The notes beneath the pieces were generated by a model. That model saw only the letters and a program-made list of their open reading frames with translations, was not told the DNA's origin and made no database searches. From contig JACAEM010000031.1 of NCBI GenBank assembly GCA_013388855.1, positions 186,001 to 250,000 on the forward strand: DNA of 64,000 nucleotides, in the 5' to 3' direction. Both the position numbers and the translations under genes were made by a program. Below, piece after piece: positions 47,399 through 55,457 of the stretch (the stretch's first letter is position 1; each line of letters opens with the position of its first letter). The DNA comes from Chloroflexota bacterium. GTDB lineage: Bacteria > Chloroflexota > Anaerolineae > Anaerolineales > Villigracilaceae.

Positions 47399-47842
47399 TT
47401 AAGAGAGCGCCTCGAACTCTGAGACTGTGAAATACAACTCGTCGTCCGCGGCTTCCGTGATGAAGTCGATGCTAACATCCACGGGGAAGCCATAGGTTTC
47501 ATCGTATGTCACAGTGACCTTGTCCGCCGCACCGCCGAGATCAGCCTCCAGTTCGGCAAACAGGTGGTCGATGGTCGCGAACTTGCTGAAATAATCGCGG
47601 GTACTGTCGTCGAGTGGATTCCCGCTTTGGTACTCCATCGAAACGATTTCACCATCCTTCACCTCGATGATGAGCGGCATATCTTGGGTGAAGATGCAGA
47701 AGCATCCCACGAACAGGTTGAATCGATAGTGGGAAATATTTGCATCCTGCCACTTTTCCTGGTTGCGTTCAAATTCGCTTTTACCAAGCCCGGAACAGGC
47801 GGTCAAAACGATGGCGAGAAATAACAGTAATAACTTTTTCAT
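47399..47842 (-). CDS. DUF6174-like lipoprotein
   Basis: The 147-residue protein has a lipoprotein signal (MKKLLLLFLAIVLTAC). The domain contains ISHYRFNLFVGCFC and ATIDHLFAELE with DKVTVTYDETYGFPVDVSIDF, which fits DUF6174, a family of unknown function. AAGGAG lies eight bases before ATG 47842, supporting this start over a more upstream ATG. It is the last gene in a minus-strand run with copper-related genes, but no functional link is visible. Confidence 0.8.
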   Translation of the reverse strand: MKKLLLLFLAIVLTACSGLGKSEFERNQEKWQDANISHYRFNLFVGCFCIFTQDMPLIIEVKDGEIVSMEYQSGNPLDDSTRDYFSKFATIDHLFAELEADLGGAADKVTVTYDETYGFPVDVSIDFITEAADDELYFTVSEFEALS

Positions 47843-47959: not shown

Positions 47960-48409
47960 TTACATGTCGTCGTGCTCCTCTTCCGGAGCGCCTTCCTTTA
48001 CCTGGACATGTACTGTGATATCTTCATAGTTTTTGAAGTGCAGGACGATGTCGAACTCATCATCGATTTTGAGGTCCTGTTTGAGGTTGATAAGCATGAC
48101 GTGCAGACCGCCGGGTTCGAACGCGATATCGGCATATGCCTCGAGGGGAAGGGACGGGATCATATGCATCTGCATGACATCACCATCCATTTTGCTCTCG
48201 TGGATTTCCACCACTGCCGCCACATCGGATGACGCGCCAATCAATTCATCTGGGGTCGAATCGTGGTTGTGGAGTTCGAAATACACGCCTCCATTTCCGC
48301 CCTGTGCGGCTGGACGCGCCCACGCGTTATGCACTTCGATCCCTTTTTCTCCTCCACAAGCAGTCAGCAAGAGGATGGAGACAAGTGCAACAAACAATAT
48401 TTTTTTCAT
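47960..48409 (-). CDS. PCu(A)C-type copper chaperone lipoprotein
   Basis: The 149-residue protein has a signal peptide with lipobox-like LLTAC (Cys18) and one beta-sandwich domain. The copper motif H-x10-M-x21-H-x-M is complete: His70, Met81, His103 and Met105. Extra Met residues at 74, 79 and 83 lie nearby. PCu(A)C proteins hold Cu(I) or Cu(II) outside the membrane and deliver it to oxidases or other cupro-enzymes. The C-terminus is acidic and His-rich (EEEHDD), which may help binding. It lies 35 bases downstream of the DeoR-NosL regulator gene, so both should be co-regulated. Confidence 0.92.
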   Translation of the reverse strand: MKKILFVALVSILLLTACGGEKGIEVHNAWARPAAQGGNGGVYFELHNHDSTPDELIGASSDVAAVVEIHESKMDGDVMQMHMIPSLPLEAYADIAFEPGGLHVMLINLKQDLKIDDEFDIVLHFKNYEDITVHVQVKEGAPEEEHDDM

Positions 48410-48444: not shown

Positions 48445-48987
48445 TCACCCAAGCAGGAATTGGATGGCTTCTTCCATACTGGCAAGTTTCCCGCCAAAGC
48501 CGCTCTGGAAACGCAGGGCTTCCAGTCGGGAGCCAAATGTCAAAATGGTCGGTACACAACACACGTTTAGGTCGCACCCGGTCAGGTAGATCGCCTGATT
48601 GGCGCTGATCATATGACCGTGCAGGAAATCCATCGTCATGGATTGCCAGATTCCTCTGGATTGTGTTTGCAACATCAGACCGCAATGAGCGCAACACGCG
48701 TTTTTTTGCTCGCCACTGGCGAGATGGACTATGAAAACTTTTCTCCCAACAGTGGACTTCCCGCACATCGCGCACGGATTTTTGACCAGTTCCGGTTCGG
48801 TATCTGCCAGTGCCGCGCTGCCATGCCTTTTTCGGACGTGCCCCATTTTCTCAAGCCGGTTGAGATCGCGGTGAATGGTCATGGTCGAAACAGAAAGCGC
48901 TTCGGCCAATTCCTGAATGGACGCACTGCCTTCTTTTTTCAGCCGCTCCAGTATTCCTTTTTCTCTGTCTGTGAAGGATTTGTTCAT
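48445..48987 (-). CDS. DeoR-type HTH fused to NosL-like Cys-rich metal-binding domain (candidate copper sensor)
   Basis: The 180-residue protein has an N-terminal DeoR-type winged helix (residues 8-58: GILERLKKEGSASIQELAEA, then STMTIHRDLNRLEKMGHV) and a C-terminal domain. The C-terminal part has Cys72/75, Cys98/99/102, Cys138 and Cys143/144, then QSMTMDFLHGHMISANQAIY and SGFGGKLASMEEAIQFL. That text resembles NosL (Cu(I)-binding) proteins, with Met118 in the same sort of place. The domain pairing is unusual: NosL proteins are normally exported. The downstream PCu(A)C gene supports a copper-sensing repressor. The upstream region has several ATATAAC half-sites. Confidence 0.8.
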   Translation of the reverse strand: MNKSFTDREKGILERLKKEGSASIQELAEALSVSTMTIHRDLNRLEKMGHVRKRHGSAALADTEPELVKNPCAMCGKSTVGRKVFIVHLASGEQKNACCAHCGLMLQTQSRGIWQSMTMDFLHGHMISANQAIYLTGCDLNVCCVPTILTFGSRLEALRFQSGFGGKLASMEEAIQFLLG

Positions 48988-48991
48988 GGAA

Positions 48992-49035
48992 GTTATAATT
49001 TGTTATATATAACTAAATTTCACGAAATATAACAA
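48992..49035 (-). promoter_or_regulatory. Operator candidate: repeated ATATAAC half-sites before the DeoR-NosL gene
   Basis: TTGTTATAT (49000-49008) and ATATAACAA (49027-49035) form an inverted repeat spaced by 18 bases. GTTATATATAAC (49002-49013) is a perfect 12-bp palindrome, and a further GTTATA lies at 48992-48997. The sites cover the likely promoter, five bases or more before ATG 48987, as expected for autoregulation. Confidence 0.6.
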
Positions 49036-49070
49036 TCTTACTACGCTTTGTCAAGTTGGTTTTGGGTGAC

Positions 49071-49104
49071 AAAAAAAAGACGCTTTCCGTTTGGGAAAGC
49101 GTCT
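49071..49104 (-). terminator. Terminator of nrfHA
   Basis: AGACGCTTTCC (49078-49088) pairs with GGAAAGCGTCT (49094-49104) around GTTTG. On the minus strand it is followed by a run of eight T (49071-49078 on plus). Confidence 0.9.
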
Positions 49105-49122
49105 CTCTACTGGTCAGAATTT

Positions 49123-50475
49123 TTACTTTGCAGGAGTTGGCTTGGGATCCATCTTGTCGTAAACGCCAGTCTCCAGCAGGGTCATATCGTTCACGGATTG
49201 TGCCGCGAGCATCTGTGCCTGCCTTGCCAGATTTGTGGATTCAGCCAGAATTTTGAGCGCATACTCAGGGTTGTGGAAACCTGTGCTGTTCTCCGCGGAG
49301 ACAAAGTCCCACATGAATTGCGCCTTGCGATGCAAGTTTCTCGCCTGGTCGAGTAATGCCGCATCAGCGTTTGGGTTGGCGGCGGCAAGTTTTATAGCGT
49401 TGATGGCGTCAATGATGGCGTTCTCGGTGTCGATCTTGATGTTGGCAACCTGTTCCTGGATCAAATTCACCCGTCGGACGACATATTCACTGTCGGTGTG
49501 GCACTGTCCGCAGGCTTGCTCAGGGTTGAGCAACGGGCTATGGACATCGTGTGATGAAAATTTCGCCGCGCCTTCGCTCACGTAGGGCATATGGCAATCC
49601 GAGCAGGAGACACCCGCATTGTAGTGTGTGGAACCAGCGGTGAAAAATTCATATTCGGGATGCTGGGCCTTGAGCATGGGAGTCTTGGCATCAGGATATT
49701 CCCAATCCTTGAATCCAAGTTCTTCATAATACTCAATGATTTGATGAATCTCGGTCCCATTTGCCCAGGGGAAGGTCAGGTATTTTCCGTCGCCCTTGAA
49801 ATAATACTCCACATGACAGTTGGCGCACACAACTGTCCGCATTTCCTGGCGGGTGAAATCTTCCCAATGCTTACCTTGTGCTTCAAGAGCTTCGTCCAAT
49901 GCAGGGTTGGTGACAATTAACCGCATCGTCCCGGCCTCATGACAGTTTGCACAGCCGATCGTATTGTTGATGTTGGGAGTCATCTCGTTGAACGACATTT
50001 TATCGTAGGCTTCCATGCCTATTTCGGTCCACAGCCCCGGATTGTCGGAGGACTTACACGAGTAACAGGTGGCAGGCGTATGCTTGGGGTCTTCATCGTT
50101 GAGATTTAGGCGCTTGGTGGCACGCACATCCTCCAGCGCGTTCATGTGACCACGGTCGTCGTTGTAGTCCTTACTGAATGGATAGCCCCAAAAGAGAATA
50201 ACCTGACGCGGGTCTTTTTCCAGCCACGAGAATTGAGATGAACCGGCGTACGTTGTATCGATGTTATTGGTCTTGGTCTTCTGAAGTGTAGACCATTGAT
50301 TCGGGAAATTCTGTCCCCACAGAGAGGAATCAGGCTCCATGGCCTTGATCTCCACTAATTGCTGAAAGGCGCGTTCCTGGGGCGGCTGATTTTTCATGAA
50401 CACCAGCACGCCGACCAGAACAGCCGACAACAGCACAATGATGCCAGCCAAAATGATGGTTGTGTACTTCTTCAT
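49123..50475 (-). CDS. nrfA: Cytochrome c nitrite reductase, catalytic subunit
   Basis: A 450-residue pentaheme enzyme that reduces nitrite to ammonium with six electrons. It has a membrane-spanning signal anchor (residues 8-27), the Lys-coordinated active-site heme CYSCK (137-141), and four CxxCH motifs at 175-179, 217-221, 291-295 and 322-326. The conserved Arg in GTMRLIV, the Tyr in HVEYYF and the KAQHPE string (Lys269, Gln271, His272; Ca2+ and substrate side) are present. The N-terminal helix is retained, so it may be membrane-attached. NrfH lies directly upstream in the operon. Confidence 0.97.
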   Translation of the reverse strand: MKKYTTIILAGIIVLLSAVLVGVLVFMKNQPPQERAFQQLVEIKAMEPDSSLWGQNFPNQWSTLQKTKTNNIDTTYAGSSQFSWLEKDPRQVILFWGYPFSKDYNDDRGHMNALEDVRATKRLNLNDEDPKHTPATCYSCKSSDNPGLWTEIGMEAYDKMSFNEMTPNINNTIGCANCHEAGTMRLIVTNPALDEALEAQGKHWEDFTRQEMRTVVCANCHVEYYFKGDGKYLTFPWANGTEIHQIIEYYEELGFKDWEYPDAKTPMLKAQHPEYEFFTAGSTHYNAGVSCSDCHMPYVSEGAAKFSSHDVHSPLLNPEQACGQCHTDSEYVVRRVNLIQEQVANIKIDTENAIIDAINAIKLAAANPNADAALLDQARNLHRKAQFMWDFVSAENSTGFHNPEYALKILAESTNLARQAQMLAAQSVNDMTLLETGVYDKMDPKPTPAK

Positions 50476-50499
50476 GGATGCATTTCTCCTTGATAAAAA

Positions 50500-50988
50500 T
50501 TATTTGACGGGATAGAGAGTCGAATCTTGATAGGGAACGCCCGATGCGCCGCGTGCACCATGCGAGACGTTGCGGTGACAATCCCAGCAATAACGACCGA
50601 ACGGTTGTGCCCCCATCACCACGCTCTCAACGGTCTCCTGATGACAACGGATGCAATTCTCCTGAATGATTTCCTTGGTCTTCTCGCTTGCACGAATGGC
50701 GACCGGAATATTTCCGGTCGTAAAGGCATATACATCTTTTGCGCCCTGACGACCCTTTTCAAGGTAATAGGCAACAAAATTTTCGTGGGGCAGGTGACAA
50801 TCCACACATTCGGTCCATTTCTCATGCGGTGCGTGGTACCAATTCTCATATTGCGAGTCCATCACGTGGCAGTTGGCACAGGTCTCCGGTGCACTGCCTC
50901 CGTAAGCGGGTGCATCGGTCACGAATACAAACGCTCCCAAGGCGATGACCGCCGCGGCAATTGCTATAATGAAAGGATTTTTCAGCAT
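50500..50988 (-). CDS. nrfH: Cytochrome c nitrite reductase small subunit, menaquinol-oxidising
   Basis: A 162-residue NapC/NirT-type tetraheme protein. It has one N-terminal membrane helix and heme motifs CANCH (37-41), CVDCH (61-65), CIRCH (112-116) and CWDCH (134-138). It takes electrons from menaquinol and passes them to NrfA. The first motif continues CANCHVM, where the Met is the unusual ligand of heme 1 in NrfH. The gene starts the nrfHA operon, 23 bases before nrfA, and its promoter holds a Crp-type site. menA and menG in the same window fit a menaquinone pool. Confidence 0.96.
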   Translation of the reverse strand: MLKNPFIIAIAAAVIALGAFVFVTDAPAYGGSAPETCANCHVMDSQYENWYHAPHEKWTECVDCHLPHENFVAYYLEKGRQGAKDVYAFTTGNIPVAIRASEKTKEIIQENCIRCHQETVESVVMGAQPFGRYCWDCHRNVSHGARGASGVPYQDSTLYPVK

Positions 50989-54931: not shown

Positions 54932-54962
54932 TCTATGGCGTACCCTGTATATGATGATGGAT

Positions 54963-54968
54963 TATAAT
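54963..54968 (+). promoter_or_regulatory. -10 box nine bases before the mucin-like gene
   Basis: TATAAT (54963-54968) is followed by CGAACCATC and then ATG 54978. No ribosome-binding site is seen. The position predicts a very short or absent leader. Confidence 0.5.
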
Positions 54969-54977
54969 CGAACCATC

Positions 54978-55457
54978 ATGGCTGAATCTTCCGATGTACG
55001 CGCCCGACGCCGCCTCACTTTGATTATCATCACACTTGCAACGATTCCCTGCTATTGCATCGGCTGGATCGCGATGGTGCTTGCGCCCGACCCGGCTGAA
55101 CTTACCCCGACTGCAACGCTGACCTTGACGGTGACATCCGGTCCCACGGCGACCGGAACGCTTCAGATCCCAACCCTGAGCCTGACTCCGTTAATTGTTA
55201 CCGGGACCATCACCAATACGCCCACCCTTACCCCGACATCGACCCTTACACCGACCCCCACGTTGTCCCATACGCCATTCCAGCCTGCGACGAACACATT
55301 TACGCCCACCCTCACCTCATCCATGACGCCGTCAATCACGCCCACTTCGACGTGGACATCCTCTCCCACCAATTCGCCCACGTTCACTCCGTCGATAACA
55401 CTTACACCATCTTCTACCTCCAATACCCCCACTCCGTCCATTACACCCTTCCCATAA
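54978..55457 (+). CDS. Thr/Pro-rich mucin-like membrane-anchored protein
   Basis: The 159-residue protein has an N-terminal membrane segment (LTLIIITLATIPCYCIGWIAMVL) and then about 120 residues of Thr, Pro, Ser and Leu in loose repeats such as TPTLTPTSTLTPTPT. This would form an extended, possibly glycosylated stalk outside the cell, with no folded end domain. I prefer ATG 54978 because a -10 box lies nine bases upstream; ATG 54951 is an alternative. It ends one base before the first M42 peptidase gene. Confidence 0.7.
   Translation: MAESSDVRARRRLTLIIITLATIPCYCIGWIAMVLAPDPAELTPTATLTLTVTSGPTATGTLQIPTLSLTPLIVTGTITNTPTLTPTSTLTPTPTLSHTPFQPATNTFTPTLTSSMTPSITPTSTWTSSPTNSPTFTPSITLTPSSTSNTPTPSITPFP

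Follow-up and report, generated by a model that had tools for sequence, protein, structure and literature searches.

A DeoR-NosL fusion protein encoded beside a PCu(A)C copper chaperone gene in Chloroflexota, a probable YcnK-type copper-responsive repressor

Results

A DeoR-NosL fusion gene lies upstream of a copper chaperone gene

The window, by which we mean the whole 64,000-nucleotide stretch of Chloroflexota DNA that was analysed, carries an open reading frame that begins with an ATG at position 48987 and stops at position 48445 on the minus strand, the strand being a detail missing from the preliminary description of this locus. The reading frame encodes a protein with an N-terminal winged helix and a C-terminal NosL-fold domain (Table 1). 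The DeoR type that had been proposed for the winged helix was confirmed by the Pfam HTH_DeoR profile, which scored 59.5 bits against a cut-off of 21. It had also been stated that the gene is located upstream of a gene for a PCu(A)C copper chaperone (PCuAC), and both the gap between the two genes and their common strand were found to agree. This is the only PCuAC gene in the window's genome, where one COX2 match was also detected. Further downstream, a gene for a DUF6174 lipoprotein is possibly the third gene of the operon; tblastn detected it in 4 of 12 related loci (L031, L033, L034 and L037). On the other side, nrfA and nrfH, encoding the ammonia-forming cytochrome c nitrite reductase, occupy positions 49123-50988 on the same strand as a separate upstream unit. 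Elsewhere in the window, an open reading frame with a long Thr/Pro-rich repeat tail (54951-55457) has similar counterparts in L031, L036 and L037.

Table 1. Features of the fusion locus, with positions numbered along the window.
Feature	Position	Strand	Basis or remark
DeoR-NosL fusion (putative repressor) gene	48445..48987	-	ORF, 180 aa
DeoR-type winged helix, residues 8-63	48799..48966	-	Pfam HTH_DeoR, E 2.7e-16
NosL-fold domain, residues 67-178	48454..48789	-	profile and AlphaFold-model matches
C72-x2-C75 codons	48763..48774	-	aligned with NosL CxxC; C72 in 52/53, C75 in 53/53
C98-C99-x-H101-C102 codons	48682..48696	-	C98, C99, H101 and C102 each 53/53
C143-C144 codons	48556..48561	-	each 53/53; C144 aligned with NosL Met of PMG/AMG
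PCu(A)C copper chaperone lipoprotein gene	47960..48409	-	Pfam PCuAC, E 1.2e-32; 35 bases downstream
DUF6174 lipoprotein gene	47399..47842	-	Pfam DUF6174, 1e-32; internal ATG start chosen by eye
Sigma-70-like promoter	49026..49054	-	TTGACA (49054-49049), 17-nt spacer, TATATT (49031-49026); 11/12 matches
Operator-like half-site TGTTATA	49028..49034	-	overlaps -10 box
Inverted half-site TATAACA	49001..49007	-	20 bases from first half-site
Third half-site TATAACT	48991..48997	-	10 bp from second, direct repeat
Hairpin and T-run, terminator-like end of nrfHA unit	49071..49105	-	-23.4 kcal/mol, z -6.1

The C-terminal half is a diverged NosL domain

The likeness of the C-terminal half to NosL, for which a comparison with Pfam and with structure databases had been suggested, was borne out by the family as a whole. 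Taken alone, the window protein matched Pfam NosL at residues 123-173 with E 5.3e-4 and 20.8 bits, under the cut-off of 24, and its gene went unreported when its own genome was searched in six frames with the NosL model. The same model matched all 13 members of an alignment of the family (A1), the window protein among them, at E <= 0.01, with a best value of 5.6e-8. A blind search of 301 genomes of the phylum gave NosL matches in 16 genomes, and five fusion genes came out over the cut-off (G126, G018, G055, G080 and G209), that of G209 only together with its in-frame neighbours. Pairwise hhalign comparison of the C-terminal profile with canonical NosL proteins of the same phylum (12 of 13 NosL loci, L056 being left out) aligned the full domain with E 4e-13, and in a profile search of the PDB the second half of the domain was matched by the NosL structures 7osf (E 1.6e-5) and 7og7 (E 3.1e-5). 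An AlphaFold2 model of the fusion protein, built from 12 alignment rows, reached a pLDDT of 88.2 and a pTM of 0.67. Foldseek matched residues 67-178 of this model to 7og7 with E 9e-6, and a second structural aligner superposed the same residues on 7og7 with Z 15.2 and an rmsd of 2.1 over 112 residues. Because all 13 family members match, and the blind search, hhalign and the AlphaFold2 model point the same way, the NosL domain is real despite the sub-cut-off score of the window protein. The family-wide profile matches, the blind search of 301 genomes and hhalign also led us to reject a chance similarity. The fusion of the two domains, as first described, is thus upheld by profile matches and model fold alike.

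Structures of the organomercurial lyase MerB also appeared in the Foldseek search from E 1.4e-4 onwards, over about 200 columns and with an overall rmsd of 10.7 A and more. They were absent from the best 50 matches of the second structural aligner, which is no argument against a likeness to MerB, and no MerB profile was present among the Pfam matches listed (25 of 37). PDB sequence searches matched NosL chains and helix-turn-helix chains separately (among the best 60 of 92 matches in the second search), and no solved winged-helix-NosL regulator was found among the PDB matches listed for the sequence and Foldseek searches.

A NosL chaperone is extracytoplasmic and has a signal peptide or lipobox, whereas the fusion protein starts with the winged helix and has no signal peptide. 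In addition, of the chaperone motifs CxxCGM and PMG only CxxC is kept, with CGK in place of CGM and CC in place of PM. Judged by its sequence, the domain is to be classed as a diverged NosL-fold domain and not as a NosL chaperone.

A set of cysteines is conserved throughout the family

Conservation was scored in 53 sequences, namely the window protein, the 12 first homologues and 40 proteins from neighbourhoods fetched later and aligned by script; close homologues among them are not independent, and two (L122 and L142) come from one genome. Residues C75, C98, C99, H101, C102, C143 and C144 proved invariant, and C72 was replaced only once, by Val in L141. The preliminary description had placed all cysteines correctly and seven of them are conserved, but it also counted C138, which is a Cys in the window protein only (1/53). 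For this reason C138 was rejected as a ligand and is no longer counted in the site that had been proposed. The Met of the NosL PMG/AMG motif, whose place is taken by C144, is presumably a copper ligand, and we infer that the NosL site may have been rebuilt with thiolates for the cytosol.

Distribution of the fusion

A search with the single protein matched 67 of 400 genomes of the phylum at E <= 1e-5. Near-full-length matches were limited to 11 genes in 10 genomes; the remainder covered the helix-turn-helix end, the longest extending to residue 119. When the class was searched with an alignment, the fusion was found in 47 of 396 genomes at E <= 1e-25, with 49 genes in total. A scan of genome contigs contributed a single extra relative, from a named Chloroflexi MAG (L031). 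Plasmid searches returned full-length matches only in records labelled Stenotrophomonas, which hold one homologue (L043, CP031730.1, labelled Stenotrophomonas rhizophila). This homologue lies in a metal island, surrounded by genes whose annotations refer to Hg, Cd, As and Cu. Since the other plasmid matches to the 11-kb stretch around it were seven records from Bacillus-like genera and Enterococcus, the label may not show the origin of the gene, and a Stenotrophomonas source is doubtful. Viral contigs scanned with the alignment contained no relative, and phage records gave 23 partial matches, none of which covered 80%.

Copper-delivery genes recur next to the fusion gene

It had been proposed that related genomes be surveyed for the same fusion beside PCuAC, CopA or CopZ genes, and such neighbours were indeed found. 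With an HMM built from these same loci, PCuAC was detected in the fetched flank of 39 of the 53 loci, within 1.3 kb in 37 of them; the fetched flank of the other 14 contained none, some of the contigs being short. The orientation of PCuAC varies, from downstream on the same strand to divergent (for example L040, L107 and L112) or convergent (L042). Clusters of recurrent neighbours, typed by Pfam from one or two members each, comprised YtkA-like proteins (13 loci), SCO1 (8 loci) and SURF1 (5 loci). Another recurrent neighbour, a 473-aa protein encoded downstream in 13 loci (for instance L108, 2834-4255), has membrane stretches and cysteine motifs by eye and gave no Pfam match. In L041 the gene for a CopC-CopD protein is found 2.5 kb from the fusion gene, and in L043 genes with CopC and CopD annotations are no more than 4 kb away from it. 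As for CopA and CopZ, a second fusion copy (L042, G387 C133) follows csoR, a copZ-like open reading frame recognised by eye and a CopA-type ATPase gene, and is itself followed by a convergent PCuAC gene and a gene for a DsbD_2-cupredoxin protein. The window's genome encodes one CsoR, on another contig (C46) and 1.5 kb from a CopA-type ATPase.

PCuAC also occurs beside nrfHA without the regulator, in four relatives (G120, G112, G005 and G064). In G120, which belongs to the same genus, the PCuAC gene directly follows nrfA, with neither regulator nor dyad, so the regulator seems to be an accessory that a PCuAC gene may or may not have.

A conserved dyad overlaps the putative promoter

The nrfHA unit ends in a terminator-like hairpin with a T-run, which a consensus terminator scan did not list, and on this account the regulator gene would have a promoter of its own; two promoter-like sites were found in the 1-kb region, where 1.1 were expected. 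Read-through from nrfHA as the only promoter was rejected, given the hairpin and the promoter-like site in between. The stretch 48992-49035, singled out earlier for binding assays, covers nearly all of a conserved dyad together with the -10 box and is a putative operator. In the seven closest loci, which share one inherited neighbourhood and are not independent, the three-part layout of half-sites scored 16-21 out of 21; of 2000 shuffles, none reached the score in six of these loci and five did in the other.

Across the family, the dyad TGT[TG]A[TC]A-N20-22-inverse was present upstream of 25 of the 53 homologues, compared with 1.13 expected in shuffles, and 28 upstream regions had no dyad at the threshold. 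The first loci had served to define the half-site, which makes the 40 fetched later a fairer test, and 15 of these carried the dyad where about 0.75 were expected (sum of the listed shuffle rates). Among 22 dyads with both arms scoring at least 6 of 7, the arms agreed at variable position 4 in 17 (permutation p 0.005, with phylogeny not corrected for) and at position 6 in 14, no more than in permutations (p 0.24). A stricter form of the pattern had a single match in the window's genome, at the promoter of the fusion gene. It occurred in 5 of 10 genomes with the fusion gene and in 0 of 10 genomes of the same family without it, the latter hand-picked from the single-protein search of 400 genomes. 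Two matches fell away from the fusion gene (G387 C107 and G372 C119), and the pattern read backwards also gave two. Upstream of the plasmid homologue no dyad was present at the spacing used, and half-sites were found there at another spacing.

Discussion

Proposed mode of action

The fusion protein probably turns a copper-delivery gene on or off in response to how much copper is available. In the reading that we prefer, and to which we assign a probability of roughly 0.6, it would be a YcnK-type copper-responsive repressor of the DeoR family, with copper as corepressor of a copper-delivery operon. A dimer, or a higher oligomer, would bind the dyad and repress its own operon, made up of the regulator, PCuAC and perhaps the DUF6174 gene. 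Cytosolic Cu(I) would bind a thiolate site in the NosL domain, in which Cys144 would replace the NosL Met, and would thereby stabilise the DNA-bound form of the repressor. When copper is scarce, the repressor would leave the DNA and the chaperone that delivers copper to cytochrome oxidase would be made, whereas copper excess would be handled by the separate CsoR-CopA locus.

The direction of the response is argued from YcnK of Bacillus. As given in excerpts of the respective papers, YcnK represses in a Cu-dependent manner and uses its helix-turn-helix domain to bind upstream of ycnKJI (PMC8424229), and it belongs to the DeoR family and represses uptake in copper excess (PMC10991351). Copper as corepressor appears likelier because expression of the YcnK operon rises when cells are starved of copper and falls when they are copper-replete, according to an excerpt of PMC12154828. 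The opposite direction, put forward in the preliminary description, holds that Cu(I) on the Cys cluster frees the DNA; PCuAC would then be induced to serve as a protective copper binder in the periplasm. We consider this model rather unlikely, and the release of DNA on Cu(I) binding doubtful by the analogy with YcnK. It has a precedent in CsoR and CopY, well-known Cu(I)-thiolate repressors that release DNA on binding copper. It also agrees with an excerpt of PMC13344008 in which YcnK is called a Cu-dependent repressor, yet cytosolic Cu+ is "proposed to antagonize" it. Moreover, the one homologue in a csoR-copA cluster (L042) would fit copper excess as well and counts against copper as corepressor. 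Induction by copper is, however, at odds with the lowered expression and the repression ascribed to YcnK at high copper (PMC12154828, PMC10991351, both in excerpt), and the recurrent neighbours that could be typed are delivery or oxidase-assembly genes. According to an excerpt of PMC7558416, a higher copper supply can in some cases make up for missing oxidase copper chaperones, which then matter particularly at low copper. The same excerpt reports that adding copper fails to rescue a Paracoccus pcuC (PCuAC) mutant, so the role of PCuAC need not be confined to low copper. Because the YcnK literature and the PCuAC data are mixed in this way, the sign is argued by analogy only.

The cysteines might instead serve to sense another thiophilic metal, such as Zn or Hg, or the thiol redox state through a vicinal disulfide between C143 and C144, the copper context being incidental. 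C72/C75 together with C99/C102 are, by eye, spaced as in a treble-clef zinc site, and an excerpt of PMC4999995 describes the NosL/MerB fold as two fused TRASH-like treble clefs, descending from such. The match of the model to MerB, an Hg binder, and the metal island around the plasmid homologue point in the same direction. We nevertheless hold such a sensor to be improbable, as NosL, the closest match of the domain, is a Cu(I) chaperone, and most of the loci (39/53) have a PCuAC copper chaperone gene nearby. A purely structural zinc domain in a DeoR-type repressor that is constitutive or otherwise controlled would account for the CxxC...CxxC spacing seen by eye, but a four-Cys site leaves C98 and the C143-C144 pair, all three invariant, without a role, and we regard it as very improbable.

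If the corepressor reading is true, a copper-limitation regulator of PCuAC, and perhaps of SCO1 and SURF1, would exist outside Bacillus. YcnK itself is a little-studied regulator of copper acquisition, and the family offers a way into copper sensing by a cytosolic NosL fold and into the direction of the response. A broader scheme, in which the whole family would be a copper-limitation switch for copper delivery to the oxidase, Cu(I) being sensed through the NosL fold after exchange of Met for Cys, and in which MerB would descend from such a sensor, is a long shot.

Comparison with known systems

Among openly licensed PMC papers, none combined DeoR with NosL and copper or DeoR with PCuAC, and none combined "NosL domain" with helix-turn-helix. 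In the excerpts available of openly licensed papers that name both YcnK and NosL, NosL appears in other connections, and PMC2928746 mentions DeoR proteins in passing only.

The NosL copper chaperone (PDB 7og7 and 7osf) resembles the C-terminal domain over its whole fold, with the CxxC motifs aligned. It differs from the fusion protein, which lacks a signal peptide, is joined to a winged helix, has Cys144 for the Met of PMG/AMG and carries the further conserved cysteines 98, 99, 102 and 143. MerB, the organomercurial lyase, is composed of an N-terminal winged helix and a NosL-like catalytic domain, and thus shares the domain order as well as the Foldseek match. Unlike the proposed regulator, it is an enzyme and not a known DNA binder, and the rmsd over the whole alignment is large. 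An excerpt of PMC8261052 reports hardly any overlap that could be aligned between MerB and its relatives of this fold. CsoR is, like the protein proposed here, a cytosolic copper-responsive repressor, but its family is unrelated to the DeoR-NosL fusion and it is encoded separately in the window's genome.

By architecture, operon position and copper context, the fusion protein is to be grouped, by analogy, with YcnK of B. subtilis. The C-terminal domain of YcnK is presumably NosL-like, and on that assumption both proteins combine a DeoR helix-turn-helix with a NosL-like domain. The NosL model matches the B. subtilis control genome, but also Haloferax volcanii. In excerpts of the published descriptions, YcnK is a DeoR-type repressor whose gene lies inside a copper-handling operon (ycnKJI) that is repressed in a copper-dependent manner, and its size is similar, the gene measuring 573 bp in B. 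amyloliquefaciens. The fusion gene, in turn, has a PCuAC gene 35 bases downstream, a promoter-like site and a dyad that may be its own operator. The two differ in their partners, which are ycnJ and ycnI in Bacillus and PCuAC here, with YtkA, SCO1 or SURF1 in some relatives; they also belong to different phyla, and the likeness is drawn from published descriptions. The suggestion of a new copper sensor, made for the protein at the outset, is not supported, because YcnK is already known as a DeoR-type copper-dependent repressor. All in all, the comparison extends a known kind of regulator, that of YcnK of Bacillus, to another bacterial phylum.
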